This document shows, piece by piece, positions 1 through 46,025 of a stretch of 46,025 nucleotides of DNA. Both the position numbers and the translations under genes were made by a program. A model generated the notes under the pieces. That model was given only the letters and a program-made list of their open reading frames with translations, was not told where the DNA came from and did no database searches. This DNA is from Candidatus Cloacimonadota bacterium (GTDB lineage Bacteria > Cloacimonadota > Cloacimonadia > Cloacimonadales > TCS61): the NCBI GenBank assembly GCA_021157525.1, contig JAGGWK010000037.1:98867-144891 (forward strand). The letters run 5' to 3'. Each line of letters opens with the position of its first letter. Position 1 is the stretch's first letter.

Positions 1-116
1 AGATAACCGTATTTCCCGGCACGTCAGACCTCATCGGTAAATTTGTAAAAGTAAGGATCGTTGATGCGGTGGGGTGGACCCTCAAGGGTGAAATGATAGA
101 GGTGGTGGATGGGTAG
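1..116 (+). CDS. miaB: tRNA methylthiotransferase MiaB, C-terminal TRAM domain (partial)
   Basis: Only the last 37 or so residues are in the window (the frame begins at base 3), so this gene is not in the ORF track. The peptide reads ITVFPGTSDLIGKFVKVRIV, then a region containing WTLKGE, and stops at TAG. This is the TRAM RNA-binding domain that ends MiaB/MtaB-type radical SAM enzymes. The W-x-L-x-G ending is typical of MiaB, which adds the 2-methylthio group to isopentenyl-adenosine-37 of tRNA. The catalytic radical SAM part lies upstream of the window, so MiaB is preferred over MtaB or RimO only on the TRAM tail. Its stop overlaps the start of the antiporter gene by 8 bases, which suggests co-transcription. 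Confidence 0.7.
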   Translation, partial: ITVFPGTSDLIGKFVKVRIVDAVGWTLKGEMIEVVDG

Positions 117-1845
117 TCTGGCTACTCACTTACAAAGCTGGATGCATCACGACACTGCCCTGATTACCAGTGCGAACCCGCTTTTTGTATTGGCGGTGAT
201 TTTGGGCATTGGCTATCTGTTCAGCAGAATTGCCTCACGCCTGAAGCTTCCCACCATCACCGGGCAGATTTTGGGGGGTGTCATCATTGGACATTATGTT
301 CTCAATATTTTCGTGGATACCGCCTATCAGAGCTTTGCACCTATTACCAACTTCGCCCTTGGATTTATTGGCCTTACCATTGGGAGCCACCTGGACTTCC
401 GCAAACTGCACAACGCAGGCAAACGCATCATCCTCATTACCCTGTGTGATGTGATCATTACGCCGGTTCTGGTCTATTTCTCCCTACGATATATAGCCGG
501 TCTCCCCGCAGTGCATAGCATGCTTATTGCCGCCATCGCCATTACCACTGCACCGGGTTCTACCATTCACATCGTCAAGGAGAAGCGGGCCAAAGGCATC
601 CTGACCAAAACTCTCCTGGCCGTTGTGGCCCTGAATAATGTGCTTACCATACTGATTTTCTACACGCTGTATTACTTTTTGCACAACAAATCTGTTTCTG
701 CAGACATCAATATTCTAAGCATCATGGGTAACTCCTTTCTCCTTTTGTTGGAGTCAGTTATTATCGGAAGTGGGGTAGGGTATGGCGTGATTCACTTCAC
801 CGAAAAGCGCAAAACGCGAGTTTCCTTTCTGGTGATGGTGATCATGGCTGTGGTTCTCACTGTTGGAGCATCGGAAACGTTGCACCTGTCCGGCATCCTC
901 TCCAGTCTCATTCTGGGGATGATCATTACCAATTTTTCCAGATTTCGCAGCGTTCTCTTCGGTGCCTTCAAAGAGATTGAAATCGAGGTGTTTACTTTGT
1001 TCTTTGTGTTAGCCGGGACGCATCTTGATTTTCATGCGATGAAGCTGGGCGGCTTTGCCGGTGTAGTGCTGATTCTCAGCCGCTTTGCAGGCAAAGTTTC
1101 CGGCCCGACTCTGGGAGCCTGTCTGGCCGGGGCAACGTCAAACATCAAGAAAAGTATCGGACTGGCCATGCATCCCATTGCGGGAGTGGCCATCGGTCTG
1201 GTATTATTGATAGAAAACAACGTACTTCTGGCACCCTATTCTGATCAGATTACGGCGGTTGTTCTTACCGCTGTGGTAGTGTATGAGCTTATAGGGCCAC
1301 TACTTACGGGAAAAGCTATTGCCCTGGCCGGGGAAGAGGGGAAGAACCGTCTGCGGCTTATGGACTTTATCCAGGAAGAATTTATCACCGTCGATCTGGA
1401 TGCATCCGATAAATGGCAGACCCTGGACTATCTTGCTGAGTTTCTTGTTCGTACCCACCAGGCGCATCACATTGATATAAATGAACTTAAGGCATCTCTG
1501 GTGCAGCGTGAAATCGAAATCTCCACCGGCATCGGAAATAATTTGGCAATACCTCATGCCATTATTCATGATGGCCCGCAAATTATCGGTGTCATTGGCA
1601 TTAGCCGTAAAGGCGTGGAATTTGACAGCCTGGATAGTCAGCCGGTGCATATCATCTTCATGATAGCCACACCCAAAGAAAATTTCGATCGGCAGCACCT
1701 GCAAGTGCTGGCAAACATAGCCAAACTCTTTGGCAAGCACAAGGATATCAAGTCACAACTGATTAATGCGCGATCTGCGGCGGAAGTATATGAGATATTA
1801 CAGAGCAAAGAAGTTGATGAACTCAATCCATTCTTTGAAGACTAA
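109..1845 (+). CDS. CPA2-type cation/proton antiporter fused to a PTS EIIA domain
   Basis: Residues about 22-400 form a chain of hydrophobic helices typical of CPA2 (Kef/NapA-like) sodium or potassium/proton antiporters. They include the N-terminal signature RLKLPTITGQILGGVIIG and a later GxxLxLSGILSSLILGMII segment. Residues about 418-565 form a soluble PTS EIIA domain of the mannitol/fructose class. Its phospho-acceptor context is GIGNNLAIPHAIIHDG, which places the active histidine near residue 483. The fusion suggests that the antiporter senses PTS phosphorylation or uses the domain as a regulatory module; the ion is unknown. The start overlaps the miaB stop by 8 bases. The next gene is 283 bases downstream, so this may end the miaB operon. 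Confidence 0.85.
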   Translation: MGSLATHLQSWMHHDTALITSANPLFVLAVILGIGYLFSRIASRLKLPTITGQILGGVIIGHYVLNIFVDTAYQSFAPITNFALGFIGLTIGSHLDFRKLHNAGKRIILITLCDVIITPVLVYFSLRYIAGLPAVHSMLIAAIAITTAPGSTIHIVKEKRAKGILTKTLLAVVALNNVLTILIFYTLYYFLHNKSVSADINILSIMGNSFLLLLESVIIGSGVGYGVIHFTEKRKTRVSFLVMVIMAVVLTVGASETLHLSGILSSLILGMIITNFSRFRSVLFGAFKEIEIEVFTLFFVLAGTHLDFHAMKLGGFAGVVLILSRFAGKVSGPTLGACLAGATSNIKKSIGLAMHPIAGVAIGLVLLIENNVLLAPYSDQITAVVLTAVVVYELIGPLLTGKAIALAGEEGKNRLRLMDFIQEEFITVDLDASDKWQTLDYLAEFLVRTHQAHHIDINELKASLVQREIEISTGIGNNLAIPHAIIHDGPQIIGVIGISRKGVEFDSLDSQPVHIIFMIATPKENFDRQHLQVLANIAKLFGKHKDIKSQLINARSAAEVYEILQSKEVDELNPFFED

Positions 1846-2128
1846 GCGTCAAATCTATCCGCTGATTGGTTTAAATTGCTCAGGTGAGTCGGTGCATTGG
1901 TGGTTCGATGTTTGAGCCGCAGGGTGCGCATTTCGCCGTTGGTGTTTTTTAACCTGAGCCCACGAACGTAAATTTACTAAAATAGGGAAAAAATCGATGA
2001 ACAACAGACAAAGAGAGGTGGATTCCGGTTATACTCTATCCTATGATAATGTACATTATGTAAACTATGAAGTGAAACACAACAATCTGGTACGAAACAA
2101 ATTAGAAAAATAATGGAGTGCAGGTGTT
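1846..2128 (+). promoter_or_regulatory. Intergenic leader before yicC, with a long-range inverted repeat and a tiny ORF
   Basis: This gap separates the antiporter gene from yicC. GCTCAGGT at 1878-1885 can pair with ACCTGAGC at 1952-1959, enclosing 66 bases that include a run of six T. This could be a structured leader or a terminator-like fold. A 38-codon ORF lies at 1997-2113 (start MNNRQREV), but it has no convincing ribosome site and no recognisable family, so I do not call it a gene. A clear purine-rich ribosome site (GGAG) lies before the yicC start. The region is AT-rich from 1970 onward and probably carries the yicC promoter, although no -35/-10 pair is clear. Confidence 0.3.
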
Positions 2129-3007
2129 ATGAAAAGTATGACAGGTTACGGTAAAGCGAATCATGTAGATGAGAACTTTGAAATGGAAGTGGAAGTAAAG
2201 TCGGTTAACAGCAGGTTTTTCGACTTTAAGATACGGAGTCCACGTGAACTTTCCTTCATGGAATTTCGGATCAAAGATATTTGCTCTCAGAGCATCAAAC
2301 GAGGGAAAGTCGAGGTTTATGTTAACTTTAAGGATAAACGCGTCCCGGAGATCGTTTTGGACGAATCGCGGTTTTCGGCTTTTGTAGAGGTATATCATCG
2401 GGCTCAATCTCTTATGGGAGGCAATCGGGAGTTGCCCTTTGCGAAGATCATCAGTGAGCCGGGAGTTATCTTGATGAGCAACACAGACTTAGAAACATCC
2501 GGTGCCATAGAGACTCTGGAGAAAGTGGTGGCGGAAGCGGTACAGAAGCATCAACAGATGGCACTCAATGAGGGAGACTCCATGAAAACCTATCTCACCG
2601 ATGCAATGGAGAGAATCGCCTCTGCCCTGTCTGAGATCGAATCGGCTATCCCATCCCACAAAGAAGCGCTCTTTGAAAAGGTGAAAAACAGTATTGAAGC
2701 ATTGCTGCCAGAGGCCCTCGGCAAAGAAGATCACAAACGACTGATGATGGAGGCCGCAATTTATATAGACAAATCTGATGTCACCGAGGAAATTGTGCGT
2801 TTGAAGAATCATGTGCAAAAGTTTCTGGACCGTGTAGGCAAAAGTGATAAAGAGATGGGCAAAAGCCTTAATTTCATTTTGCAGGAGATGCATCGGGAGA
2901 TCAACACAACCGGTTCAAAATTTGGCGATACCGGCGTGTTTCCCAGCATCATGATGATACGAGAGGAGATAGAAAAATGCAGGGAGTTAGTACAAAATGC
3001 CGAGTAA
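2129..3007 (+). CDS. yicC: YicC-family endoribonuclease
   Basis: The protein opens with MKSMTGYGKA, the hallmark of the YicC/YloC family, followed by EVEVKSVNSRFFDFKIRSP. The C-terminal part holds SDVTEEIVRLKNHVQKF and GKSLNFILQEMHREINTTGSK, matching the conserved DUF1732 region. Its 292 residues are the usual family length. Members are known as hexameric endoribonucleases that act in RNA turnover. In many genomes yicC sits before gmk; here a small membrane protein and RNase R follow instead, so an RNA-decay theme continues in the operon. The start at 2129 has a GGAG site and the family's canonical first residues. The stop lies 8 bases inside the next gene's start region (11-base overlap). 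Confidence 0.93.
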   Translation: MKSMTGYGKANHVDENFEMEVEVKSVNSRFFDFKIRSPRELSFMEFRIKDICSQSIKRGKVEVYVNFKDKRVPEIVLDESRFSAFVEVYHRAQSLMGGNRELPFAKIISEPGVILMSNTDLETSGAIETLEKVVAEAVQKHQQMALNEGDSMKTYLTDAMERIASALSEIESAIPSHKEALFEKVKNSIEALLPEALGKEDHKRLMMEAAIYIDKSDVTEEIVRLKNHVQKFLDRVGKSDKEMGKSLNFILQEMHREINTTGSKFGDTGVFPSIMMIREEIEKCRELVQNAE

Positions 3008-3485
3008 ATATCCGTTGAGATGGGTGTCACACCCAATGCGTGAATACCCCATTACCACCGGGATATTGCTTCTTTTTCTCGGTTTGATCGCCGCCTTTTT
3101 GTGGGATGTCACCAGCACCCCGGTGGATCAGTCTATCACCGTTTTTACCTGGGTCGGCATGAACGTAGCCGGATGGGATATGCCCTTTTTTTACTACCTG
3201 GGCATCATCTTTCTCTTCTTCAGCCTCATCACCTATTTCATTCCCACCTATTACCAATGCGATGAAGACCTTATCACCATCCGCTACTGGTTTTTCAAAG
3301 TAACCCATCGCTACGATGAGTATGGCTGCTTTTATCTGGATGCAAAGGGCGTAATGCTGAGCACCTTTAAGCGGCCTCGTCGTCTCGATCCCTTCAGGGG
3401 TTTGTCCCTCCGCTTTTCCCGTAGCAGAAAGGAAAAGCAACCGCTTTTGGACATCCTGCAAGAACGCATAGGAAACCGAGTTTAA
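2997..3485 (+). CDS. Small membrane protein with two transmembrane helices (hypothetical)
   Basis: I do not recognise a named family. The 162 residues hold two hydrophobic helices (about 19-37 and 62-83) joined by a short loop. A cytosolic C-terminal part follows, with alternating hydrophobic strands (DLITIRYWFFKVTHRYDEY) and a basic tail rich in R and K. The layout resembles small PH-like membrane proteins, but that is a guess. The listed start overlaps yicC by 11 bases. An in-frame ATG at 3036 (MREYPITTG) just before the first helix is an alternative start. The stop overlaps the rnr start by one base (TAATG), which implies coupled translation with RNase R. Confidence 0.7.
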   Translation: MPSKYPLRWVSHPMREYPITTGILLLFLGLIAAFLWDVTSTPVDQSITVFTWVGMNVAGWDMPFFYYLGIIFLFFSLITYFIPTYYQCDEDLITIRYWFFKVTHRYDEYGCFYLDAKGVMLSTFKRPRRLDPFRGLSLRFSRSRKEKQPLLDILQERIGNRV

Positions 3486-5572
3486 TGTTTGATAAAACAC
3501 TGGCATATCACATTGAGAAATTACTTCTGGATTATGAAGGTAATTATTTCAAAACCAAGGATATAGCCAAGGCTCTGAAGATTAAGAAACACAAATACAA
3601 AGACCTGATGGATACCCTCTACGGCATGTCCAAACAACGGCGGATACGGCGAAAAGACAGAACCTTTGGAATAGAAAATCTTCAGAAGCCTGAGCTTATC
3701 GTGGAAGGCATATTCGATGCTCGATCTCTGGTGAAAAATCGTTCCTTTGCCTTTGTCTCATCCCCAGAGGGAGACCTCTATATTTCTGCCGAAGACATCC
3801 AGACGGCCTACCATGGCGACAGGGTAAAAGTAAGTGTGCACAGTGGCAGTGGCGGCCGCAAATATGGACGGGTAATCTCGGTGGTTAAACGGGCCAAAAC
3901 CACCTTTGCAGGCACTTTTCAACGATACCGGAATAGTATGTATCTGGTGCCGGATAATGGGAAAATCCACACACATTTGATGGTGCGGGATGCCAATGGT
4001 GCTCGGTCTGGCCAGAAAGTTGTGATGAACATTATAAATTGGGGCTCTCGGGAATTACAAAAACTTCCCATTGGCGATATTACGCAAGTGTTGGGAGAAT
4101 CGGGTAATCCCGAAGTGGAAATCCTGGCAGTTATCATGGAATACGGCTTGCCTCTGGAATTTCCCGAAGAAGTAATTGATGCCGCTCAAGCTATCGATGG
4201 CTCCATCAAGGATGAAGATATTGCATCCCGAACAGACTTGCGAGATCTACTGACAATCACCATAGATCCCCTCTCAGCCCGGGATTATGACGATGCCATC
4301 TCGCTGGTACAGTCCGGCGATGAAATGGTACTTTACGTGCACATTGCCGATGTGGCCCACTATGTTGTCCCCGGTTCACCACTGTACAAAGAAGCCTGTG
4401 AGCGCGGCAACAGCTACTATTTTCCACGGCGCGTCATTCCCATGCTTCCCACCAGACTTTCAAACCAGATTTGCAGTCTGCGCCCCGATGAAGATAAGCT
4501 CGCTCTCACGGTGGAAACCCATTTTTCAGCCTCTGGATCCATGAGCAGACAAACCGTGTATGAGAGCGTGATCCGCTCTGACGCCAGGCTGGTGTATGAG
4601 CAGGTGGATGCGCTGTTTGACGGTGATAAAACCGATATCTCTGAACCGATAGCAGCAATGCTAACCAGTCTGCACCAGCTCTCGAAGGTGCTGGCAAAAA
4701 TCCGGCAGGAAGCTGGTTATCTTACCTTCTCTCTCCCGGAAAGCGAATACGAATTTGATGACGACGGACATCTGATAAACATCCATCGTTCACGGGAGAC
4801 AGATTCTCATCGGCTTATCGAGAACTGTATGCTGGTGGCCAATCAATATATTTGCCAACGATTGTCCAAGGGTGAAACCCTCTATCGCATTCACGAAGAT
4901 CCCAATGAAGATCGCATCAATGTAATCCTGGACATTTTGAGGAAATACAATGTTGATGTGTATTTACAAGAAAATCTTAACAAAACACTTCAACATGTTC
5001 TGGAAGAATTAAAGACCGAATCTTTTCATCGGGTATTTGACAGACAGATATTACGGAGCCTCAAGCGAGCCCGTTATTCCATAGAAAACAAAGGTCATTT
5101 TGGTTTGGCGATGACGTATTATACCCATTTCACCTCACCAATCCGGCGCCTGTGTGACTTGGTTGTGCACTTGCAGATCAAGGATCAGATCCATCATCGC
5201 CCACCACGGTTCACCCGTCAGGAACTCTTTGACTTGGCTGGCAAAGCAACCGAGCGGGAGATGATCGCTGATGAAAGCGAACGGGAAGTGGATTGGAAAA
5301 ACAAACGCATCTTCATGAAGAAGAAACTGGGAGATGAATTCAGCGGCATTATACTCGCTGTTCAAAAAAACCGCATCGTTGTTGAACTGGATGATTATCC
5401 TGTTTCTGGCGTGATAGAGATGGCTACGGTAAAAAAAGAGCGATTTGACTTTATTGAGCAATACAGCCGTATGGTTGGACGGAAAACCGGGAAGATATTG
5501 GGACTTACGGACAAAGTGACCGTGATGGTCAGCAAAGTAACGGATGATATCTATTTTCAATTAATCTTATGA
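3485..5572 (+). CDS. rnr: Ribonuclease R (RNB-family 3'-5' exoribonuclease)
   Basis: This hydrolytic 3'-5' exoribonuclease degrades structured RNA and defective transcripts. The order seen is an N-terminal winged-helix-like region (about 1-60), cold-shock-like RNA-binding domains (about 65-215), the RNB catalytic domain from about 250, and a C-terminal S1 domain (DEFSGIILAVQKNRIVVEL onward). The catalytic acidic cluster is visible as DPLSARDYDDAISL (residues 261-274). The conserved YTHFTSPIRRLCDLVVHLQI segment is also present. At 695 residues it is shorter than the E. coli enzyme and lacks a lysine-rich tail, as in many other phyla. It overlaps waaA through ATGA, so the two are translationally coupled. 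Confidence 0.95.
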   Translation: MFDKTLAYHIEKLLLDYEGNYFKTKDIAKALKIKKHKYKDLMDTLYGMSKQRRIRRKDRTFGIENLQKPELIVEGIFDARSLVKNRSFAFVSSPEGDLYISAEDIQTAYHGDRVKVSVHSGSGGRKYGRVISVVKRAKTTFAGTFQRYRNSMYLVPDNGKIHTHLMVRDANGARSGQKVVMNIINWGSRELQKLPIGDITQVLGESGNPEVEILAVIMEYGLPLEFPEEVIDAAQAIDGSIKDEDIASRTDLRDLLTITIDPLSARDYDDAISLVQSGDEMVLYVHIADVAHYVVPGSPLYKEACERGNSYYFPRRVIPMLPTRLSNQICSLRPDEDKLALTVETHFSASGSMSRQTVYESVIRSDARLVYEQVDALFDGDKTDISEPIAAMLTSLHQLSKVLAKIRQEAGYLTFSLPESEYEFDDDGHLINIHRSRETDSHRLIENCMLVANQYICQRLSKGETLYRIHEDPNEDRINVILDILRKYNVDVYLQENLNKTLQHVLEELKTESFHRVFDRQILRSLKRARYSIENKGHFGLAMTYYTHFTSPIRRLCDLVVHLQIKDQIHHRPPRFTRQELFDLAGKATEREMIADESEREVDWKNKRIFMKKKLGDEFSGIILAVQKNRIVVELDDYPVSGVIEMATVKKERFDFIEQYSRMVGRKTGKILGLTDKVTVMVSKVTDDIYFQLIL

Positions 5573-6783
5573 TAATTTACTACGTACTAACGACCATAAT
5601 CTTTGTTGTTACGCTACCAATCTTAATGTTATACATTAAGTTTACAAACCAGGCTCAACGTCTGACGTGGGGATATAAAAAGTACTATCAATGCCTGTGG
5701 ATTCACGCTGCATCCATGGGAGAAGTAAACGGAATTCGGCAGCTCATTGCCAGACTCCGCCGGGCTTACCCAAATCGGGAGATCGTGATAACCACCATGA
5801 CCAAAACCGGCCGAAAAGTTGCACGGGAACTTGCCGACGCAGCCTATCTTGCACCCCTCGACCTCTTCCCCATTCTTCTGCGAGGATTTCGTTTTCTTCA
5901 GCCTGCTGCTATCATCATTGCAGAAACCGAGATATGGCCGGGAATGATCACCATGGCTCACAAAAAAGGTATTCCGCTGGTATTTATCAATGCCCGGATA
6001 TCAGATTCGTCATTGGGCAGTTATCAAAAGTTAAAACCTTTGTTAGCCCCGGTTTTTCGCCATGTTCACACCGTGATTGCCCAATCTGAAAAAGATCAAC
6101 AACGGTTTATAAGCCTCGGCTTCAGAGATGTACGCCATACCGGAAACCTGAAATTCTCCGTCACTCAACCGCTATATCGAAAAGAGGATATGCGAAAGGA
6201 AATGGGCTTTGCCCAAGATGATCTTGTCGTGGTTTGGGGCAGTAGTCGTCCCGGTGAAGAACAGCTGGCTTTAACCACATTTGACGCATTAAAACAGAGA
6301 CATCCCCGCCTGCACCTGATACTTGTCCCGCGGCATCTGAAGCGGCTTCCGGAGATCCGGACAATACTGAATGGGCATGACGTGACCTATTATAGTTCCT
6401 ACAAGCCCGGCGCCCCCATTGTGGTGGTAGATGCCATGGGGGTGTTGCAAAAGCTCTACGCCCTGTGTGATATTGCCGTTGTGGGTGGCAGCTTTTTCGA
6501 TTTTGGTGGACACAATCCTCTGGAACCCGCCTTCTATCGCTGTCCGATAATTATGGGTCCCTACCACAGTTCCTGTCGGGATTCGGTAGAAAAATTAAAA
6601 CAAGGTAATGGAATTATAATTGCAAACACAGATACGTTGCAGGATGAGATGCAAAAATTGCTGGTGGACAGCCTGTTGAGAAACCGCATTGGAAACAATG
6701 CAAAAAACGTGCTCGAAGCCCATGCATCCAGCGTGGATGATACCACCAAAATCCTGCAAAATATCATTGCGGAGTCATTATGA
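5569..6783 (+). CDS. waaA: 3-deoxy-D-manno-octulosonic acid (Kdo) transferase
   Basis: WaaA/KdtA moves Kdo from CMP-Kdo to lipid A at the inner membrane, so this gene implies an LPS-bearing outer membrane. One N-terminal hydrophobic anchor (about 3-22) is followed by the GT30 N-terminal fold with WIHAASMGEVNG. The catalytic-region motif AETEIWPGMI comes next, then FINARISDSSLGSYQKLKPL. The C-terminal nucleotide-binding half holds VWGSSRPGEEQLAL, LVPRHLKRLPEI, and the family's closing GGSFFDFGGHNPLEPA. The 404 residues are slightly short for the family but no block is missing. ATGA overlaps join it to both rnr upstream and the lipoprotein downstream. Confidence 0.95.
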   Translation: MIIYYVLTTIIFVVTLPILMLYIKFTNQAQRLTWGYKKYYQCLWIHAASMGEVNGIRQLIARLRRAYPNREIVITTMTKTGRKVARELADAAYLAPLDLFPILLRGFRFLQPAAIIIAETEIWPGMITMAHKKGIPLVFINARISDSSLGSYQKLKPLLAPVFRHVHTVIAQSEKDQQRFISLGFRDVRHTGNLKFSVTQPLYRKEDMRKEMGFAQDDLVVVWGSSRPGEEQLALTTFDALKQRHPRLHLILVPRHLKRLPEIRTILNGHDVTYYSSYKPGAPIVVVDAMGVLQKLYALCDIAVVGGSFFDFGGHNPLEPAFYRCPIIMGPYHSSCRDSVEKLKQGNGIIIANTDTLQDEMQKLLVDSLLRNRIGNNAKNVLEAHASSVDDTTKILQNIIAESL

Positions 6784-9113
6784 GACGGTTGTTACTGTTT
6801 GCGATTATTGTGGTTACACTCTTTGTCGGATGTTCCAAAGACACCACTTCAACAGGGCGGTTAGATGCACCAACAGGCCTGGTAGCCGAAAAATACGGGC
6901 TTTTTCACATTCGGATAAGATGGAACGATAACTCCACCGGCGAGGAGTCTTTTTTCATCGATCGCAAAAAAGGTGAAAGCGATTGGGATGTAGATTTTGC
7001 AGAAGTTGCCAAAAACACAGAAGAATATGTAAACAACATAAACACATCAGCTGCCACAGACACGTTGTATTCGTACCGTGTGAGGGCTTTTGACAGCGGA
7101 GATTATTCAGACTACAGTATTTCTGCAGCCTACATTGATGCATCAGTAGCCCCCGATTCCCTTACCTTTGTGCAAATAGGACAGGATAGCGTGGGCCTGA
7201 GCTGGAACGATAACACCATCGGAGAAGAGGGCTTTGCGCTGGAGCGCCGCAGCGAAGGAGAAGATTGGACGTCCGTAGCTTTACTGGATGCAAACGTCAC
7301 CAGTTTTGTGGATGCTGTTCCCGCACTTTACGATACACTGCTTTATCGGGTGAGTGCTTTTGTGGGAGATTCACATTCTGAATATCTGGAAAATAACTAC
7401 AACCCAATCCTCCCTGTTCCCAGTAATTTAACGATAACATGTTCAAGTATAACATCAGTGCAATTGACGTGGGATGACAACGCCACTCTGGAAGATGGAT
7501 ACCGGATTTATAAATCGGAAGATCTCATTTCCTGGGATGAATCCACCCTTCCACAAAACAGCACGCAATGGGTGGATTCTTCGGTTACCCCCGGAGTGAT
7601 GACCTATTATAAGGTGCTTTCATTCCTGGGCCAAAATACCTCTCCCGCAGTTTCCGACAGCGTAAACACCATACCGGAGCCATCCAATCTGGTAGCTACG
7701 GCCAATAATGATAACCTTGAAATATCTCTTACTTGGGATGATTTTTCCCTTTTTGAAGATACATTCCGGATTGAACGGCGCACATTAACGGGGGATTTTG
7801 CTCCACTGGCCACCATCCCGGCAAACAGTACGCACTATATCGATACGCAGATAGAAAATCTGGTAACCTATTATTACCGAATAACTACCAATGCTCAGGG
7901 CTACTCATCTCCCCCTTCAGCAGTTGTATCGGCTACCTGCACCGCTGGTCAAACGACAATGCTGCTGGTTCCGTCACAATTTGCTTCCATCCAGGATGCC
8001 ATAGATGCAGCCCGGGATGGCGATCGGGTTCTGGTATTACCTGGCCACTATCGAGAAAAAATCGACTTCGAGGGGAAATCTATCTCCGTCGTTTCCATGT
8101 ACTCCCTTACTCATGACCACAGTGCCATCGTCGAAACCATTATCGACGGAGAATCCGACGGCTCTGTCGTGCGCTTTGCCAATGCAGAAGACTCCCTTAC
8201 CGTCATCCAGGGGTTTACCGTTCAAAACGGCTTTGATAGCAGCGGTATCTTTTGTAGTTCCAGTCGTCCCATGATCAAAAACATGATAATCAAAAACTCC
8301 CATGCCACGTCAAACGGTGGCGGATTGCGGGTTCGTAATCTTTCCCACTTGGTGGTGGATAGTGTGGAATTTGTGGGAAATTGTGCAGTCAATGGCGGCG
8401 GAATGTCTGTTGAAGGGGAAAGTGTCGTACTCATCAAAAATTGTACTTTTACCCAAAACACTGCCGAGCAGGGTGGGGGACTGGAAATTATAAAATCCTT
8501 CGCAACCTTGGAAAACAATGAATTCTTTGCCAATGAAGCAGAGCATGGCGGCGGGATGCATTCCAAAACCGAAGCGGAAATCACCATGATCCACTGCCGC
8601 TTTTTTGAAAATCTCAATGATGGGTTTGATGGACGTGGCGGGGCTTTATACACCTCAGGAAGCACATATCACATAGAAAATACCATCTTTGCAGATAATG
8701 CCTCTTACGGGCCAAACGCCATTGGCGGTGCCATCTACACGGTGAGCAATTCAAACATTGATCTTTTGAATGTGGTGATCACTGACAACATCGCAAACAT
8801 TGGCGGCGCCGTGTACATCACCGAGCTTTCCGATATCACCATCCGCAACTGCATCATCTGGGAAAACCTGCCCTATGATATCGATATCAACGGACGTGCA
8901 GTCTTTATGCATTACACCGATGTTACCGAGGATTTTCCCGGAAACAACAACATCAATGAAGAACCCAACTTTACGGATCCGGAAAATCACGATTATCATC
9001 TGCAACAAGATTCACCCTGCATCGATGCCGGAGATCCGGATGGTTTGTATAATGATCCCGATGGATCGGTAAATGACATGGGGGCTTACGGCGGACCAAA
9101 CGGACAATGGTAA
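6780..9113 (+). CDS. Lipoprotein with four fibronectin III-like repeats and a parallel beta-helix domain
   Basis: A short signal peptide ends in the lipobox LFVGCSK (Cys at about 19), so the protein is probably anchored in a membrane facing the periplasm or cell surface. Residues about 28-390 contain four related FN3-like repeats, each with the signature WxDN or WDDF followed by E-x-x-F-x-I/L-x-R. From about 395 (VPSQFASIQDAIDAARDGDR) a right-handed beta-helix starts, with repeated NxGGG, GGGM and GGAIY turns, as in pectate-lyase-like or polymorphic outer-membrane proteins. The end reads DPDGSVNDMGAYGGP, a common closing motif of such secreted FCB-group proteins. A role in surface binding or glycan contact is plausible but not shown. 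It overlaps waaA by 4 bases and is followed by a strong terminator. Confidence 0.8.
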   Translation: MRRLLLFAIIVVTLFVGCSKDTTSTGRLDAPTGLVAEKYGLFHIRIRWNDNSTGEESFFIDRKKGESDWDVDFAEVAKNTEEYVNNINTSAATDTLYSYRVRAFDSGDYSDYSISAAYIDASVAPDSLTFVQIGQDSVGLSWNDNTIGEEGFALERRSEGEDWTSVALLDANVTSFVDAVPALYDTLLYRVSAFVGDSHSEYLENNYNPILPVPSNLTITCSSITSVQLTWDDNATLEDGYRIYKSEDLISWDESTLPQNSTQWVDSSVTPGVMTYYKVLSFLGQNTSPAVSDSVNTIPEPSNLVATANNDNLEISLTWDDFSLFEDTFRIERRTLTGDFAPLATIPANSTHYIDTQIENLVTYYYRITTNAQGYSSPPSAVVSATCTAGQTTMLLVPSQFASIQDAIDAARDGDRVLVLPGHYREKIDFEGKSISVVSMYSLTHDHSAIVETIIDGESDGSVVRFANAEDSLTVIQGFTVQNGFDSSGIFCSSSRPMIKNMIIKNSHATSNGGGLRVRNLSHLVVDSVEFVGNCAVNGGGMSVEGESVVLIKNCTFTQNTAEQGGGLEIIKSFATLENNEFFANEAEHGGGMHSKTEAEITMIHCRFFENLNDGFDGRGGALYTSGSTYHIENTIFADNASYGPNAIGGAIYTVSNSNIDLLNVVITDNIANIGGAVYITELSDITIRNCIIWENLPYDIDINGRAVFMHYTDVTEDFPGNNNINEEPNFTDPENHDYHLQQDSPCIDAGDPDGLYNDPDGSVNDMGAYGGPNGQW

Positions 9114-38559: not shown

Positions 38560-38602
38560 GCACATAAGTAACCCAGTGCTACCAAGGAGAGATGCGGATT
38601 AC

Positions 38603-38786: not shown

Positions 38787-38814
38787 TTGACACCAATTGA
38801 GACATCACTATTTA
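38787..38814 (+). promoter_or_regulatory. Putative promoter of the restriction-modification operon
   Basis: TTGACA (38787-38792) and TATTTA (38809-38814) are separated by 16 bases, 40 bases upstream of the preferred methylase start (38854). The -35 is perfect and the -10 matches four of six. The TTG start used by the ORF track (38797) lies inside this promoter, which argues for the later ATG. Confidence 0.5.
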
Positions 38815-38853
38815 TCGAGTGTGAAAATAAAAAAAAGAAGAAAAATTGATACT

Positions 38854-39540
38854 ATGAATGAACAGGTAAAATCAAAGAAGAGAGTTGCGAACTATGGAGA
38901 AGTGTTTACTTCTAAACGAGAAGTAAACGCCATGCTGGATTTGGTGAAACAAGAGACCCAGAGGATAGACTCCCGCTTTTTGGAGCCAGCCTGTGGCACC
39001 GGAAACTTCCTCACAGAGATACTGGAACGTAAACTGAGAGTTGTAGAAAAACGTTATAAAAGGAATCAGATAGAATTTGAAAAATATTCTATTCTTGCCG
39101 TTTCAAGTATTTACGGTATTGAAATACAAAGAGACAATGTTAAAGAATGTCGCATGAAATTGTTTGGTATTTTCGATTGGAAATATACCGAGTTATATCC
39201 CAAAACGACTAAAAATGAATGTAGAAATTCGGTTAAATTTCTTTTCTCAAAAAATATCATTCATGGTAATGCACTTTCTCTCCAAACAGAAGATAACCCA
39301 CCAAAACCAATCACCTTTTCGGAGTGGTCATTGGTAAATGGTAGTATGATAAAACGGAGAGACTTTACAATGTCTTTATTGATTAATTCCTACCAGTCTG
39401 CACAAATGGATCTGTTTCCAGAACCAGATCTTTTTGCTGATTTTGACGAAGAAGAATTCGTCCCTAAACCTACAAAAGAATATCCGCTTCAACACTTCCT
39501 GAAATTGGGAGAAGAAAATGATAGAAAATTACAATCCTGA
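38854..39540 (+). CDS. N6-adenine methylase-family protein without the NPPY motif
   Basis: The preferred start is the ATG at 38854 (MNEQVKSKKRVANYGEVFTS). The resulting 228 residues have the N6 methylase opening (V-F-T-S-x-x-E-V) and SAM-binding motif I FLEPACGTGNFLTEIL (Glu44 to Gly50). The catalytic D/NPPY tetrapeptide does not occur. Instead a segment NALSLQTEDNPPKPITFSEW and VNGSMIKRRDF fill the place. It may be a SAM-binding partner of the next gene's product rather than an active enzyme. The 3' end overlaps the next gene by 23 bases. Base composition is AT-rich, unlike the core genes. Confidence 0.8.
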   Translation: MNEQVKSKKRVANYGEVFTSKREVNAMLDLVKQETQRIDSRFLEPACGTGNFLTEILERKLRVVEKRYKRNQIEFEKYSILAVSSIYGIEIQRDNVKECRMKLFGIFDWKYTELYPKTTKNECRNSVKFLFSKNIIHGNALSLQTEDNPPKPITFSEWSLVNGSMIKRRDFTMSLLINSYQSAQMDLFPEPDLFADFDEEEFVPKPTKEYPLQHFLKLGEENDRKLQS

Positions 39541-41011
39541 TGTACTTACTTGTTTAGCAAATCTTAGCAATGATGAAGTGTTTACACCACCAGAATTAGT
39601 AAACGACATCTTAGACCTTTTACCAAAAGAACTGTTTGAAAACAAAGAAACTACTTTTTTAGATCCCGTTTGTAAGTCTGGTGTGTTTTTGCGTGAAATT
39701 GCTAAAAGATTAATGACAGGTTTAGAAAAAGAAATCCCCGATAAACAAAAAAGAATTAACCATATTTTTAAAAACCAACTTTTTGGCATTGCTATCACTG
39801 AGCTTACATCGTATCTTTCTCGCCGCAGTGTATATTGCAGCAAAACAGCGAACGGCAAATACTCGGTGTGTGATGCCTTTGATGATGCGCAGGGAAACAT
39901 AGGTTTCAAAAGAATTGACCATACATGGAAAAATGGTAAATGTATTTTTTGCGGTGCCGGTAAAAAAGCATACAGCCGCGGTAAAGACCTTGAAACCCAC
40001 GCCTATCAATTCATCCACACCACAAAACCAGAGGAGATTTTTAACATGAAATTTGATGTAATTATTGGAAATCCACCGTATCAATTAAATGATGGTGGTG
40101 GTACTGGTTCAAGTGCAAAACCTATTTATCATAAATTCATTGAGCAGGCAAAAAAACTGAATCCAAGATTTATTACAATGATTATTCCTGCTCGATGGTA
40201 TTCTGGTGGAAAAGGATTAGATAGTTTTAGAAAAGTTATGTTGAGCGATAAGAGAATTAGACAGTTAATAGACTTTGAAGATTCTCGGGATTGTTTCCCT
40301 AGTGTTGACATTGCAGGTGGTGTTTGTTATTTCTTATGGGATCGTGACAATCAAGGCAAGTGTAATGTAATAACTAATAACAATACTCAGATTCAACATT
40401 CAGAAAGATTTTTAGATGAATTTGACACATTTATTAGAAGTAATACAGCATTAAATCTGATACAAAAAATAAATAAAAAAAGCGATGTCTTTCTTGATTC
40501 AATTGTGTCTAGTAGAATGCCTTTTGGTCTAACAAATGATTTTAAAGAAGAAATTAATGGTAAAATTACATTAATTAGTAGTAGTGGAATAAGTAAAATT
40601 TCAATAGAACAAGTAACAAATGGAAAGCAATTAGTAAAAAAGTGGAAAGTTCTTTTATCTAAAACTGCAAGTGAGCATGCCGGTCAACCGGACAAAGAAG
40701 GTAAAAGAAGAGTATTTTCAAGAATAGAAGTTATGCCTCCAAATGTGGTTTGCACTGAGTCTTACTTAATTGTTGGCAATTTTGAGAATGAACAAGAAGC
40801 TATAAATGCAGTATCGTTTCTTAAATCAAAATTCTGTAGATTTTTAGTTTCGTCCATATTACTTACTCAGAATATAACAAAAAGTAAATTCGTTTTTGTT
40901 CCCATGCAGGATTTTTCAAAACCGTGGACAGATGAAGAGTTGTACAAAAAATACGATCTCACCCAGGAAGAGATTGCCTTTATCGAATCAATGATACGTC
41001 CTATGGAATAG
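39518..41011 (+). CDS. Eco57I-type DNA methyltransferase with zinc-finger-like insert
   Basis: A DNA adenine methylase of 497 residues, of the kind found in restriction-modification systems. Seen in order: the opening DEVFTPPELVNDILDLLP, a divergent motif I FLDPVCKSGVFLREI (49-60, K in place of G), an insert with CIFCG (Cys142 and Cys145) and His161/His167 that could bind zinc, and the catalytic motif VIIGNPPYQLNDGG (NPPY at 185-188). The C-terminal half holds a target-recognition-like region and closes with DLTQEEIAFIESMIRPME. The preceding protein has motif I but no NPPY, and this one has a weakened motif I, so the two may work as a pair. RhuM follows after 3 bases. Confidence 0.85.
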   Translation: MIENYNPDVLTCLANLSNDEVFTPPELVNDILDLLPKELFENKETTFLDPVCKSGVFLREIAKRLMTGLEKEIPDKQKRINHIFKNQLFGIAITELTSYLSRRSVYCSKTANGKYSVCDAFDDAQGNIGFKRIDHTWKNGKCIFCGAGKKAYSRGKDLETHAYQFIHTTKPEEIFNMKFDVIIGNPPYQLNDGGGTGSSAKPIYHKFIEQAKKLNPRFITMIIPARWYSGGKGLDSFRKVMLSDKRIRQLIDFEDSRDCFPSVDIAGGVCYFLWDRDNQGKCNVITNNNTQIQHSERFLDEFDTFIRSNTALNLIQKINKKSDVFLDSIVSSRMPFGLTNDFKEEINGKITLISSSGISKISIEQVTNGKQLVKKWKVLLSKTASEHAGQPDKEGKRRVFSRIEVMPPNVVCTESYLIVGNFENEQEAINAVSFLKSKFCRFLVSSILLTQNITKSKFVFVPMQDFSKPWTDEELYKKYDLTQEEIAFIESMIRPME

Positions 41012-41014
41012 AAG

Positions 41015-42025
41015 ATGAATAAACAAAATCAATTAATCATCTACCAAACCGAAGATGGCAAAGTAAAGATCGAAACGCATTTTGAGAATGAGACCGTTTG
41101 GCTGTCCACAGAGCAAATTGGAGAGCTCTTTCAACGAGATAGAAGCGTAATCAGCAGACATATCAAGAATATCTTCAGCGACGGGGAACTGGAAGAAAAT
41201 CTGGCTTGTGCAAATTTTGCACATACCACTCAACACGGTGCTATCAAAGGGAAATCTCAAACTCAAAATGTAAAATGCTACAACCTTGATGTAATTATTT
41301 CAGTAGGTTACAGAGTAAAATCTCATCGTGGTGTTCATTTTAGAAAATGGGCAACAGCACTTATCAAAGAATATTTGATAAAGGGTTTTGCAATGAATGA
41401 CGAACTGCTGAAAGAAGCAGGTGGTGGCAGTTATTTTGATGAGCTTCTGTCTCGCATCAGAGACATTCGTTCTTCAGAAAAAGTATTCTGGAGAAAGGTC
41501 TTAGATATATATGCCACCAGTATAGACTATGACCCCAATTCTGAGATTACTCGTGAGTTTTTCTCCGTTATCCAAAACAAAATGCATTGGGCATCTCATG
41601 GAGAGACGGCAGCAGAAACTATATATCGGCGTGTAGATGCAAACAGTGAGCATCTGGGGTTAACCTGTTTTAAAGGTAAACATCCAGCAAAGCATGAAGT
41701 GCTTATAGCCAAGAACTATCTTACAGAGCAGGAATTAAATATCTTAAACAGGATGGTTTCGGCATTTTTAGAGATCGCAGAAATCAAAGCCATCGATCAT
41801 GTGCCTATGTACATGAAAGATTGGATAGAACAACTTGATAGTTTTTTGAAAATGACACAAAAAGAGGTTTTAAATCATTCAGGAACCATTTCGCATCAAG
41901 AGGCTGCTCAAAAAGCTCTTTCAGAGTATGAGAGCTATAAAGAAAAGACAAAGAATGAAGTAAGTGAAGTGGAGATGGATTTTATTAAGCAGATAGAAGA
42001 TGCCGCAAAAAGGTTAAAAGAATGA
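41015..42025 (+). CDS. rhuM: RhuM-family virulence-type protein
   Basis: The 336-residue protein opens with a KilA/RhuM-type DNA-binding-like region (VWLSTEQIGELFQRDRSVIS, then RHIKNIF). The family core follows: VKCYNLDVIISVGYRVKSHR, GVHFRKWATALIKEYLIKGF, and SRIRDIRSSEKVFWRKVLDIYA. The C-terminal region is helical and charged. RhuM was named in a Salmonella pathogenicity island, but its biochemical role is unknown. It is often found near restriction-modification and other defence genes. Here it lies between the methylase and the helicase, overlapping the helicase start by 4 bases, so it is part of the same operon. Confidence 0.9.
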   Translation: MNKQNQLIIYQTEDGKVKIETHFENETVWLSTEQIGELFQRDRSVISRHIKNIFSDGELEENLACANFAHTTQHGAIKGKSQTQNVKCYNLDVIISVGYRVKSHRGVHFRKWATALIKEYLIKGFAMNDELLKEAGGGSYFDELLSRIRDIRSSEKVFWRKVLDIYATSIDYDPNSEITREFFSVIQNKMHWASHGETAAETIYRRVDANSEHLGLTCFKGKHPAKHEVLIAKNYLTEQELNILNRMVSAFLEIAEIKAIDHVPMYMKDWIEQLDSFLKMTQKEVLNHSGTISHQEAAQKALSEYESYKEKTKNEVSEVEMDFIKQIEDAAKRLKE

Positions 42026-44514
42026 GTAATACACTTTTTCCTGAACGTCCCGATTCTGCTCCGGTTATATATGCTTATGAGATACTTGGTGCAGATAACA
42101 GGCGTGGATTACTGAAAGTTGGATTTACAAATCGTGAAGCCAAAGAACGGATAAAAGAGCAACTACAAACAACAGGTTTAGATTACACGATTGTACTTGA
42201 AGAAACAGCAATGCGCAATGATGGATCTAGTTTTACAGATCATGAAGTCCATCGTCAGCTTAAGAAAGATGGGATTATCAATACCGACGGTGAATGGTTC
42301 AGATGTACCGTTTTCGATGTAAAATCGGCAATCATCGCCGTTCGTAATGGGGAAAGTAACGATAGAGCACGGGTTCATGATTTTGCCATGCGTCCAGAGC
42401 AGCAGGCTGCGGTAAACAAGACGTGCCAACATTTCAAAGACTTTAAGCGAAAAGAGCCGGGGATGACACCGCATTTTTTGTGGAATGCAAAGATGCGATT
42501 TGGTAAAACCTTTGCCGCATATCAATTGGCATTGAAGATGAACTGGAAAAGGGTATTGGTTCTCACCTTTAAGCCGGCAGTGCAAAGTGCCTGGGAAGAA
42601 GATCTATTAACTCATAAAGATTTTGAAGGTTGGCAGTTTATTTGTCGGGACGGCCTTCAATTTCAGGATGCAGATGAGAATAAACCCTTTGTGTGCTTTG
42701 GTTCCTTTCAAGATTTTTTAGGCAGAAACACCAAAACCGGTGGAATAAAAACGAAAAATGAATGGGTTCATTGCATTAATTGGGATTGCGTAATCTTTGA
42801 TGAATATCATTATGGGGCATGGCGAGATAATGCAAAAGAGCTCTTTGAAAGTGAAGAGAAAGAGCAGATAATGGAAATGGGCGATATAAAAGAATTTGAT
42901 GAAGGCATCCTGCCTATCACAACCGATCATTATCTCTACCTTTCCGGCACGCCATTCAGAGCAATTGAATCGGGCGAATTTATTGAAGAGCAGATATTCA
43001 ATTGGACTTATTCTGATGAGCAAAAGGCAAAAGAAGAGTGGGTAGGAGAAAATAATCCATACGCAGCACTTCCACGGATGGTTTTACTAACATACCGAAT
43101 GCCAGATGATATCAGAGATGTTGCTCTGGGTGGAGAGTTCAATGAATTTGATTTAAACACGTTTTTTAAAGCCAAAGGATCAGGTGATAAAGCACACTTC
43201 ATATTTGAGAGTGATGTACAGAAGTGGCTCAGCTTGATTCGGGGTTCTCATCTAGCTACGACATTAGACAATCTTAAAATGGGCGCTAAAAAACCACCCA
43301 TGCCCTTTTCTGATAGCAGATTGTTACAGCTGTTATCGCATACATTCTGGTTTTTGCCAAGCGTTGCATCCTGCTATGCTATGAGAAATTTGATGAATCA
43401 AAGACAAAACAATTTTTATCATGATTACAATATCGTTGTTGCTGCAGGCAATAGTGCAGGGACTGGTGCAGAGGCACTCCCCCCTGTGTTTAAAGCCATG
43501 GGAGATCCATTACAATCTAAAACAATTACACTGTCTTGTGGTAAACTAACCACTGGCGTTTCAGTAAAACCGTGGTCTGGTATTTTTATGCTGAGAAATT
43601 CTTCCAGTCCTGAGACCTATTTCCAAGCAGCATTTCGAGTGCAAACACCATGGACGATAAGTAACCCCGATGGTAAATCACCTGATGAGATAGAAATTCT
43701 AAAGAGAGAATGCTATGTATTTGATTTTGCTCCCAACCGAGCATTGTCTCAAATAGCTGATTATAGCTGCCGATTGAATGTGAGTGAAAGGAATCCCGAA
43801 AAGAAGGTAGCCGAGTTTATTCATTTTTTACCTATTCTTGCCTATGATGGAAGTTCCATGAAACAGATTGATGCCAGAGGAGTACTGGACATTTCTATGA
43901 GTGGAACAACTGCAACCTTGCTGGCAAGAAGGTGGGAAAGTGCACTGCTGGTAAACGTAGATAATGAAACCCTTCATCGGTTGATGAATAATGAAAGAGC
44001 GATGGAAGCCTTAATGAAAATCGAAGGATTTAGGAAGCTGAATAAAGAAATTGAAGCAATAATCAACAAATCTGAAGCAGTAAAAAAGGCTCGAAAAGAA
44101 GCAAATGATTCTGAGATGACAAAAAAAGAGAAAAAGAAACTCACCGACGAAGAAAAAGAGTATAAAAGCAAACGGAAACAAATCCAGGAAAAACTCATCA
44201 AGTTTGCTACCAGAATCCCCATCTTCATGTATCTCACCGATTATAGAGAAAAGAGCCTGAAAGATGTCATTACCCAACTTGAGCCGGGGTTATTCAAAAA
44301 AGTCACCGGTATCTCTGTAGATGATTTTGAGCTTCTGGTTAGTCTTAATGTGTTTAACAGCTCATTGATGAACGATGCAGTGTACAAGTTTAAGCGGTAT
44401 GAAGATGCGAGTCTTGCATACATCGGCATAAACAAACATGAAGGCGAAGATGTCGGTCTCTGGAATACTGTTTTAAATTCTGGCGATTGTATTGAAATCG
44501 TAGAGAATGAGTAA
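42022..44514 (+). CDS. SF2 helicase with N-terminal GIY-YIG (T5orf172) nuclease domain
   Basis: Residues about 14-105 look like a T5orf172/GIY-YIG nuclease: IYAYEIL (17-19), LLKVGFTNREAKERI with Arg43, HEVHRQLKK, and EWFRC (91-95). From about 123 the SF2 core follows: Q-motif-like MRPEQQAAV, Walker A KMRFGKTF (158-163), DEYH box (260-263), SGTPF (308-312), TTGVSV (510-515), and the arginine motif QAAFRVQ (535-541). The C-terminal quarter is very charged, with a coiled-coil-like K/E-rich stretch around 690-725. This should be the translocase and nuclease of the restriction system; its partners are the methylase genes upstream. The nuclease assignment rests on motif spacing, not on alignment. 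Confidence 0.85.
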   Translation: MSNTLFPERPDSAPVIYAYEILGADNRRGLLKVGFTNREAKERIKEQLQTTGLDYTIVLEETAMRNDGSSFTDHEVHRQLKKDGIINTDGEWFRCTVFDVKSAIIAVRNGESNDRARVHDFAMRPEQQAAVNKTCQHFKDFKRKEPGMTPHFLWNAKMRFGKTFAAYQLALKMNWKRVLVLTFKPAVQSAWEEDLLTHKDFEGWQFICRDGLQFQDADENKPFVCFGSFQDFLGRNTKTGGIKTKNEWVHCINWDCVIFDEYHYGAWRDNAKELFESEEKEQIMEMGDIKEFDEGILPITTDHYLYLSGTPFRAIESGEFIEEQIFNWTYSDEQKAKEEWVGENNPYAALPRMVLLTYRMPDDIRDVALGGEFNEFDLNTFFKAKGSGDKAHFIFESDVQKWLSLIRGSHLATTLDNLKMGAKKPPMPFSDSRLLQLLSHTFWFLPSVASCYAMRNLMNQRQNNFYHDYNIVVAAGNSAGTGAEALPPVFKAMGDPLQSKTITLSCGKLTTGVSVKPWSGIFMLRNSSSPETYFQAAFRVQTPWTISNPDGKSPDEIEILKRECYVFDFAPNRALSQIADYSCRLNVSERNPEKKVAEFIHFLPILAYDGSSMKQIDARGVLDISMSGTTATLLARRWESALLVNVDNETLHRLMNNERAMEALMKIEGFRKLNKEIEAIINKSEAVKKARKEANDSEMTKKEKKKLTDEEKEYKSKRKQIQEKLIKFATRIPIFMYLTDYREKSLKDVITQLEPGLFKKVTGISVDDFELLVSLNVFNSSLMNDAVYKFKRYEDASLAYIGINKHEGEDVGLWNTVLNSGDCIEIVENE

Positions 44515-44621
44515 GCTGGCTCTTATAAAGCGAATTTAATTCTTGAGTCTCTTTTTTTAAAAAAGGCGGAATCTAACACATGAACGATGCCATGCCTCAG
44601 GGGAATGGTACGAAAACGGTT
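44515..44621. other. Short gap after the helicase gene
   Basis: This stretch has a T-rich/A-rich dyad (CTTTTTTTAAAAAAGG) that might act as a weak terminator. No gene is seen. The right copy of the 44-bp repeat begins directly after it. Confidence 0.3.
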
Positions 44622-44665
44622 GAATATCGCCCCTATCGGCAAATTGTCGGGGAGACAGACATAAG
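44622..44665 (+). repeat. 44-bp direct repeat, right copy
   Basis: This copy is identical over 44 bases to 38516-38559 and in the same orientation. It lies just 29 bases upstream of the S41 peptidase start, so it may also contribute to that gene's 5' region. The sequences outside the repeats share no longer match that I can see. Confidence 0.95.
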
Positions 44666-44694
44666 TTTCAATGAAATTAATATGAGGAAGGAAA

Positions 44695-46025
44695 ATGAAA
44701 AAATTTAACAGAAAGCAATTAATTACAGATTTTGACTTTATGGTGAAAACTTTCGAGGAAGTTCATCCGAATATCTATGCAATGGTTGATGAGAATAAAA
44801 TGAAAGAAGCAGCAAAAATGATTAGAGGAAATCTTGCAGACGGAATGACGATTATTGATTTCCATAATATAATCGGTAAATTTGTTGCCTCCATCAAAGA
44901 TGGTCATACTTTCATATATCTTTTCAATAATTATTTGTATAAACAAAAAGATTTCAAATTCTTCTACCCTGTTTTACTATTTAGTGAGAAAAAAGCTAAA
45001 TTTAAAAATAATGTTGAAGATATTGCAAAAATTGGAGATGAAGTTTTAGAGATTAACGGAATATCAATGGAATCTATTATCACTGAAATGCTAAAATACA
45101 TTTCCGCAGAAACTGAATCGTTTCAATATACCCAATTAACGGGTAAATATCGACTTTTATTATATTTCTTATTCAATATCAAATCACCTTTCAAAGTTAA
45201 AATAAAAAGAGATAATGAGATTCTTGAAATTGAATTTGAAGGAAAATCAATTAATGATTTCAATAAAAATAAATCGAAGAAAAAAGAATCAACGAATGAG
45301 CATTTAAAAGAAAATTTCAAAATTGAGAACGGAGTTGGGATATTTACAATTAAGACATTTGGTTATCATAAAGAGGAAGCAGAAAAATTTAAAAGATTTG
45401 TTGATAAATCATTTGAAGAAATGAAACGAAATAACATAGGTAAATTAATATTTGATGTTCGACAAAATGGTGGTGGTAATTCTTCGATGGCAAATTATAT
45501 TACGAATTATCTTACCGAAAAACCAACATACAGCTTTGATAGACTGATTTGGAAAAGCAGTCAGCAAATAAGAAATTTTGTGTCGGATGATGTTAAAAAT
45601 AAAACCTATGGGTATTATGATCAAGATTCATATGATGAGTTATTGTCTGTAAATTTAGGTGAATGCTTGGAAATGGATTGTAAATCTTATAATAATCCGA
45701 ATGCCAAAGAAAAAACCTATAGAGGTGATGTGTATGTGTTATCAGATGAAGCTTGTTTTTCAACAACATCAGATTTTATTGCGATGATTAGAGATTTTAA
45801 ATTAGGTAAAATAGTCGGTCAAACTCCTGGTGGTCTTCCTAATTCTTTTGGTGATTGCTATTATTTTGATTTGCCAAACACGAAAATTATGGTTTCAGTT
45901 TCTCACAAATATTTTGTAAGACCTTCTGGAAATGAAAAAGATAATGATCTTATTCCAGATTATATCGTAGAGCAAACCATCGAAGATTCAAAGAGAGGAA
46001 TAGATACAGTTATGGAATTTGCAAA
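44695..46025 (+). CDS. S41-family peptidase (partial, cut by window end)
   Basis: This ORF is open to the window edge (443 codons), so the track does not list it. It starts MKKFNRKQLITDFDFMVKTF with a GAGGAAGG ribosome site and has no signal peptide. The tail-specific protease core is visible: IKDGHTFIYLF, then FKIENGVGIFTIKTFGYH, KLIFDVRQNGGGNSSMANYI, and the catalytic serine region VLSDEACFSTTSDFIAMIRD with GKIVGQTPGGLP. A PDZ-like segment may lie at about 105-130 (KIGDEVLEINGIS). It would cleave proteins in the cytosol; the target is unknown. The gene is very AT-rich, more so than the island, which suggests acquired DNA. Confidence 0.85.
   Translation, partial: MKKFNRKQLITDFDFMVKTFEEVHPNIYAMVDENKMKEAAKMIRGNLADGMTIIDFHNIIGKFVASIKDGHTFIYLFNNYLYKQKDFKFFYPVLLFSEKKAKFKNNVEDIAKIGDEVLEINGISMESIITEMLKYISAETESFQYTQLTGKYRLLLYFLFNIKSPFKVKIKRDNEILEIEFEGKSINDFNKNKSKKKESTNEHLKENFKIENGVGIFTIKTFGYHKEEAEKFKRFVDKSFEEMKRNNIGKLIFDVRQNGGGNSSMANYITNYLTEKPTYSFDRLIWKSSQQIRNFVSDDVKNKTYGYYDQDSYDELLSVNLGECLEMDCKSYNNPNAKEKTYRGDVYVLSDEACFSTTSDFIAMIRDFKLGKIVGQTPGGLPNSFGDCYYFDLPNTKIMVSVSHKYFVRPSGNEKDNDLIPDYIVEQTIEDSKRGIDTVMEFA

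Follow-up and report, generated by a model that had tools for sequence, protein, structure and literature searches.

A genome-wide, one-sided, uptake-signal-like motif with the core GGATGCA in a lineage of Candidatus Cloacimonadota

Introduction

Why does a single heptamer, GGATGCA, recur so often in one stretch of bacterial DNA? The question was raised by a stretch of 46,025 nt (referred to as the window) on contig C17 of a 2.23-Mb genome that is 98.5% complete, and 2.03 Mb of this genome were analysed. The RpoB protein of the genome falls in Candidatus Cloacimonadota, with the nearest named relatives at about 80% identity. A preliminary description of the window had offered four readings of the heptamer and had proposed a Markov-model count, a test for strand bias, and searches for an orphan methylase and natural-competence genes. 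Among its four readings, a DNA uptake sequence is now the best supported, a HIP1-like motif or a methylation site is less likely, and a polar chromosome-organisation signal is contradicted. The heptamer forms the core of a longer, one-sided signal that is present throughout the genome at about one strong copy per kb. The best explanation, which we regard as moderately probable, is that this signal resembles an uptake signal sequence (USS) and has accumulated by biased natural transformation.

Results and Discussion

Enrichment of GGATGCA in the genome and the window

The Markov-model count revealed 1,903 copies of GGATGCA in 2.03 Mb, or about one per kb, which is above every expectation: 552 copies under an order-2 model (observed/expected ratio, O/E, 3.45), 899 under order 4, and 1,394 under the maximal order, the last of which is exceeded even though it already includes the 6-mers of the motif itself. 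GGATGCA ranks first among all 7-mers by z-score genome-wide, and the other top 7-mers (CATCCAG, CAGGATG, AGGATGC, and GCATCCA) are fragments of the same longer motif. Its z of 57 corresponds empirically to about 9-10 standard deviations (sd), as the order-2 z of ordinary 7-mers has an sd of 6 and not 1. The two strands carry 946 and 957 copies, respectively, and the test for strand bias, run per tile, showed no heterogeneity beyond chance (chi2 89.9, 116 tiles).

The enrichment differs with base composition. The O/E was 1.4-1.55 in 5-kb blocks of low GC content (<40%) and 3.0-3.7 in the other blocks, where low GC serves only as a proxy for foreign origin. Low-GC, putatively foreign DNA, including part of the end of the window, is largely without the motif.

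Within the window, an exact word count on both strands located 45 copies (20 on the + strand and 25 on the - strand), against 9.0 on average and at most 20 in dinucleotide shuffles and 11.1 under the order-2 model. The excess is 4-5-fold and far beyond chance, and 23 of the 45 copies have the longer form CWGGATGCA. The preliminary description had counted about 44 copies and noted the strand balance and two full palindromes at 1398 and 31016, all of which the word count bears out, but its eight-fold excess was too high. Two of the copies it had placed in intergenic DNA, at 17427 and 31374, are indeed intergenic, whereas the third, at 34210, is doubtful. The features of the window, based on this count, are as follows (position, strand, feature; ORF, open reading frame).

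1..34300, motif-rich part holding 42 of the 45 copies at about 1.2 per kb
34301..46025, motif-poor part holding the other 3; an IS200-like transposase followed by a restriction-modification-like cluster
140..146, +, GGATGCA copy
1169..1175, -, GGATGCA copy
1398..1407, GGATGCATCC, two overlapping inverted copies
3338..3344, +, GGATGCA copy
4222..4228, -, GGATGCA copy
5709..5715, -, GGATGCA copy
6723..6729, -, GGATGCA copy
7286..7292, +, GGATGCA copy
8554..8560, +, GGATGCA copy
9919..9925, -, GGATGCA copy
10231..10237, -, GGATGCA copy
10839..10845, +, GGATGCA copy
11911..11917, -, GGATGCA copy
12280..12286, -, GGATGCA copy
12352..12358, -, GGATGCA copy
12475..12481, -, GGATGCA copy
16638..16644, +, GGATGCA copy
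17427..17433, -, GGATGCA copy, intergenic
18527..18533, -, GGATGCA copy
19527..19533, -, GGATGCA copy
20134..20140, +, GGATGCA copy
21270..21276, +, GGATGCA copy
21343..21349, -, GGATGCA copy
22599..22605, -, GGATGCA copy
22767..22773, +, GGATGCA copy
24745..24751, +, GGATGCA copy
25038..25044, +, GGATGCA copy
25384..25390, -, GGATGCA copy
25423..25429, -, GGATGCA copy
26609..26615, +, GGATGCA copy
27445..27451, -, GGATGCA copy
28276..28282, +, GGATGCA copy
28613..28619, +, GGATGCA copy
31016..31025, GGATGCATCC, two overlapping inverted copies
31374..31380, +, GGATGCA copy, intergenic
32036..32042, -, GGATGCA copy
32429..32435, +, GGATGCA copy
33121..33127, -, GGATGCA copy, intergenic
33264..33270, -, GGATGCA copy
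34210..34216, +, GGATGCA copy, just inside the longest possible asparaginase ORF start (TTG at 34224)
37253..37259, -, GGATGCA copy, motif-poor part
42666..42672, +, GGATGCA copy, motif-poor part
43365..43371, -, GGATGCA copy, motif-poor part

The uneven spread between the two parts is significant (binomial p = 0.0013), and the GC content is 37% at 40-45 kb, where the restriction-modification-like cluster lies. The presence of only three copies in the last 11.7 kb, together with the low O/E of low-GC blocks, indicates that the motif is scarce in recently acquired DNA, as far as GC content can stand for foreign origin.

Several genes were recognised at this end of the window. The IS200-like (Y1) transposase (34879-35325) lies close to where the motif-rich part gives way to the motif-poor part. 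The low-GC cluster (38797-44514) comprises methyltransferase ORFs, RhuM, and a protein with T5orf172 and ResIII domains; its two MmeI/Eco57I-type methyltransferase ORFs overlap (38797-39540 and 39518-41011) and are either one gene broken by a frameshift or a pair of subunits.

Anatomy of the motif

The full motif is one-sided and consists of a pyrimidine/T-rich tract from -13 to -5, C at -2, A/T at -1, and GGATGC(A/C). Genome-wide, position -2 is C in 55% of the copies, -1 is mostly T or A, and +1 avoids C in favour of T or G. Measured against permuted control words, the T-rich tract stands out independently in intergenic copies, with z reaching 6.8, and in coding copies, with z reaching 10.4. 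A profile of the flank learned from intergenic copies also told coding copies from controls, with an area under the curve of 0.64. The flanking bases, which had at first been described as not conserved, are conserved, and TTTTTNNCTGGATGCATC is a form with both the T-tract and the GGATG core.

An iterated weight matrix found 2,455 sites of at least 12 bits, compared with 332 in a simulated order-2 genome. GGATG was invariant in the top 2,401 sites. The matrix has C after it in 84%, A/C at the last position, and C at -2 in 78%, although the iteration sharpens the consensus by construction. When GGATG was kept intact, the O/E of CWGGATGCA with 0, 1, 2, and 3 mismatches was 8.9, 3.0, 1.7, and 1.2, respectively, whereas a single mismatch inside GGATG lowered it to 0.8. 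GGATG thus tolerates no change, and the mismatch ladder indicates an inner core with softer positions around it, as described for the USS (PMC7811141) and for the DNA uptake sequence (DUS; PMC12616744).

The palindrome GGATGCATCC occurs 144 times in the genome, against two occurrences of a reversed control, and 266 of the 1,903 GGATGCA copies fall within such palindromes. CC follows TGCAT in 41% of the cases with GGA in front and in 29% of those without it, so that the palindrome exceeds what independent half-sites would give by a factor of only about 1.4. The palindrome is largely two overlapping half-sites, which argues against a HIP1-type palindrome; this candidate was rejected as the primary unit on that small excess and on the asymmetric flank.

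A signal at the DNA level

GGATGCA reached a density of 0.95 per kb inside called genes, compared with 0.86 per kb in intergenic DNA. Genes were delimited by a simple purpose-made caller (1,428 genes, 84% coding) that overlooked atypical genes, including some at the low-GC end of the window; part of the "intergenic" sequence is consequently coding. GGATGCA is also the top 7-mer of intergenic DNA (290 copies against 65 expected, O/E 4.4). Within genes, shuffling of synonymous codons with proteins and codon usage kept gave 272 copies of GGATGCA against 865 observed, and 172 copies of TGCATCC against 748 observed. The preliminary description had argued that codon bias alone would not suffice, and this view stands, since a 3-4-fold excess is left after synonymous shuffling; a full explanation by codon usage, the counter-case it had raised, fails on both the shuffled and the intergenic counts.

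The proteins carry a footprint of the motif. GCA-TCC is the most over-represented of all codon pairs, and genic copies prefer the frames encoding Asp-Ala and Ala-Ser. They are found in sense (864) and antisense (745) orientation and are level along genes, favouring neither starts nor ends. The motif-encoded peptides [LQ]DA, [RGW]M[HQ], and AS[WC] reach 1.80x, 1.37, and 1.81 in this genome, compared with 1.07x, 0.58, and 0.92 in relatives, respectively; the motif has driven up peptides such as Leu/Gln-Asp-Ala. In 128 genes with orthologues, 177 cases were compared: the residues encoded by the motif agreed with the best relative in 72 of them, against 107 expected from the same amino acids elsewhere. 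This suggests that the copies lie at tolerant positions, that residues were altered, or both, alternatives that the orthologue test does not separate.

Lineage restriction

Comparison with other genomes shows that the motif is lineage-specific among those compared. In contrast to the 144 copies of GGATGCATCC found here, each of 124 other Cloacimonadota genomes, none of them congeneric, has 0-11. CWGGATGCA occurs 822 times here and at most 134 times in any of 59 relatives, the 134 belonging to a genome almost twice as large. The pooled loci of named relatives and other phyla contain 107 copies of GGATGCA against 177 expected, and no equally strong word was seen in about 0.3 Mb of the relatives G003 and G017.

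A different word, TATCGATAA, is enriched in relatives (G017 loci L216-L225 and the rpoB loci of named relatives), with 17 copies against 2.9 expected in 174 kb of G017. Viral contigs containing CTGGATGCATCCAG were also considered (82 matches), but high density occurred only in very short pieces centred on the match, and they were set aside as uninformative.

Competence genes

The search for natural-competence genes was positive. The genome encodes ComEC, DprA, and a ComEA-like protein of 236 residues with tandem HHH_3 domains. It also has a type IV pilus operon (C82) with a prepilin peptidase (PilD), PilC-like and PilB-like proteins, a secretin (PilQ), PilM-like and PilT-like proteins, and a major pilin. 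Two small genes in it evolve fast and are putative minor-pilin genes; like PilN/O/P, they were assigned by position and sequence character, without a family match. The pilin genes and the ComEA-like protein are located as follows.

L103:16566-17264 and L103:17264-17728, putative minor pilins, pilus operon
L103:18797-19225, major pilin, pilus operon
near C34:24456, second pilin-like protein
C35:6506-6922, ComEA-like protein

Between the minor-pilin genes and pilM, the operon also encodes a protein of 695 residues (L103:14546-16633) with no Pfam or NCBIfam match, which is possibly a pilus-tip protein.

The motif as a proposed uptake signal

An uptake signal is best supported by the combination of about one copy per kb, presence on both strands and inside and outside genes, the T-rich flank, scarcity in low-GC DNA, and the machinery. 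From these features we infer preferential uptake, a receptor, and drive. A receptor at the tip of the type IV pilus or in the outer membrane would preferentially bind double-stranded DNA bearing the signal. Passage of the bound DNA through the outer membrane would then fall to the pilus/PilQ machinery together with the ComEA-like protein, ComEC would pass one strand inward, and DprA would load this strand for recombination. If a chance mutation created the signal, its fragment would be taken up and recombined more often, and the signal would build up by biased transformation wherever proteins tolerate it. Newly acquired foreign DNA would lack it.

The closest likeness is to the USS of Pasteurellaceae (AAGTGCGGT / ACAAGCGGT), which shares with the motif a density of about one copy per kb, occurrence on both strands and in genes as well as between them, and type IV pilus/ComEC-type machinery, as well as an invariant inner core, softer outer positions, and an AT-rich tract on one side (PMC1626085, PMC7811141). 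The core CWGGATGCA is nevertheless unrelated and belongs to a different phylum and a single lineage. The DUS of Neisseriaceae, read through ComP, is similar in density, in lineage specificity (lineage-specific dialects), and in overlapping inverted pairs, which give dyad symmetry in some species with simDUS and kingDUS (PMC3630211). It is unrelated in sequence and, unlike the motif, lacks flanking motifs (PMC1626085). In all, the traits matching published USS and DUS are density, strand balance, genic and intergenic presence, inner core, one-sided AT-rich flank, tolerance-limited protein footprint, low-GC scarcity, and overlapping dyads. Our analysis suggests that the motif most likely works like a USS while belonging to neither known family.

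Other results weigh against an uptake signal. The competence genes are not special to this genome, as ComEC was found in 32 of the 40 Cloacimonadota genomes searched, so that competence probably dates far back in the phylum, and the motif is new in this lineage. No ComP orthologue was established, the sole lead being a match of the conserved major pilin to the Pfam family ComP_DUS at 22.1 bits, below the cutoff of 27.3. This candidate receptor was rejected, since the matched pilin is 74-82% identical in relatives without the motif, which points to a generic pilin match, and the solved structures closest to it belong to ordinary pilins, geopilin among them. The motif also falls short of the very strong consensus known from classical USS and DUS: perfect copies of CWGGATGCA (756) do not outnumber core-intact copies with one mismatch (2,020), and the enrichment is about 25-fold per 9-mer over random composition by our own arithmetic, compared with 175-fold for the USS of H. 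influenzae (PMC1626085). Finally, closely spaced, non-overlapping inverted pairs showed no enrichment beyond the overlapping palindrome. Such pairs are typical of uptake-sequence terminators.

In the literature found, self-specific uptake signals are described only for Pasteurellaceae and Neisseriaceae, both Proteobacteria, and a single literature search on competence and uptake in Cloacimonadota returned nothing relevant. We consider it an evenly balanced proposition that the motif represents a third, independent origin of self-DNA uptake, outside Proteobacteria and in one Cloacimonadota lineage. Such a system would have its own core (CWGGATGCA) next to a T-rich flank resembling that of the USS, and would be young or permissive, its consensus still soft. 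If this holds, a distant uncultured phylum would provide the third independent case, in a signal that resembles the others in anatomy but not in sequence; natural transformation would be active in Cloacimonadota; and both the origin of such signals (the USS and this motif share an invariant inner core and a one-sided AT-rich flank) and their spread by drive could be probed.

Alternative explanations

The site of another abundant DNA-binding protein, such as a nucleoid organiser or a global regulator, or a neutral drive of another kind, is an unlikely source of the motif. A one-sided graded motif would suit any protein-DNA contact, and the receptor of an uptake system is itself only postulated here. 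However, the even spread within genes and the similar density inside and outside them are ill-suited to a regulator, and a nucleoid protein with such a sharp GGATG core would be unusual.

The main rival is a HIP-like by-product, in which an orphan methyltransferase reads part of the motif (e.g. GGATG or GCATC) and repair or mutation bias linked to methylation pushes the genome towards it like a ratchet, with no role in uptake. Cyanobacterial HIP1 and iterated palindromes are likewise short and enriched genome-wide in a lineage-specific manner. HIP1 is palindromic and tied to orphan methyltransferases, as are genome-specific HIP palindromes to methyltransferases (Elhai, PMC4390886). Consistent with such a ratchet, GGATG/CATCC and GATGC/GCATC are enriched genome-wide, GGATGCATCC is strongly enriched, and three DNA methyltransferases were seen, at L024:17440-19998, at the end of contig C11, and in the window. 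Unlike HIP1, however, single one-sided sites dominate here, with the T-rich tract on one side only and the palindrome near the frequency of independent half-sites, and mismatches are depressed at almost every core position, which does not fit one mutation type feeding the motif. The search for an orphan methylase found no D12-class methyltransferase in the 2.03 of 2.23 Mb read, and the three enzymes seen resemble restriction-modification or BREX-type enzymes, for which avoidance of the recognised sites would be expected. The methylation-linked ratchet is weakened by the asymmetry of the motif and by the enzyme search, and we judge it quite improbable.

A Chi-like or segregation signal, that is, a polar site read by AddAB/RecBCD or FtsK, is very improbable. 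Chi sites are also short and occur about once per kb, and an AddA-like helicase-nuclease is encoded (L036). Chi and KOPS sites are skewed to one replication strand, whereas the per-tile strand balance of the motif is no more variable than a coin toss and genic copies occur in both orientations; the absence of strand heterogeneity excludes such a skew and argues against Chi or KOPS.

A codon-pair or protein-composition effect without a DNA-level signal is next to impossible: although genic copies lean to Asp-Ala and Ala-Ser frames, synonymous shuffling and the intergenic counts ruled it out, as did the relatives, which lack such a bias, and the peptides of rarer frames are raised too.

Other repeats and genes

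Among the papers searched, none connects such a repeat with GGATGCA or GGATGCATCC. Other dispersed repeats were observed in the genome. An intergenic inverted repeat, CCTGGCAGGT...ACCTGCCAGG, with arms about 16-18 bases apart, is dispersed genome-wide, often near contig ends (e.g. L024:898-924 and L025:494-521), and CTACTCTCCAT and AATCCCTTCAATC are present in 20 and 24 copies, respectively. These are likely short repeat or insertion-element families. In the window, positions 12790-17299 encode a KaiC-like ATPase, a multi-PAS/GAF HisKA_2 histidine kinase, and a response regulator in consecutive order.

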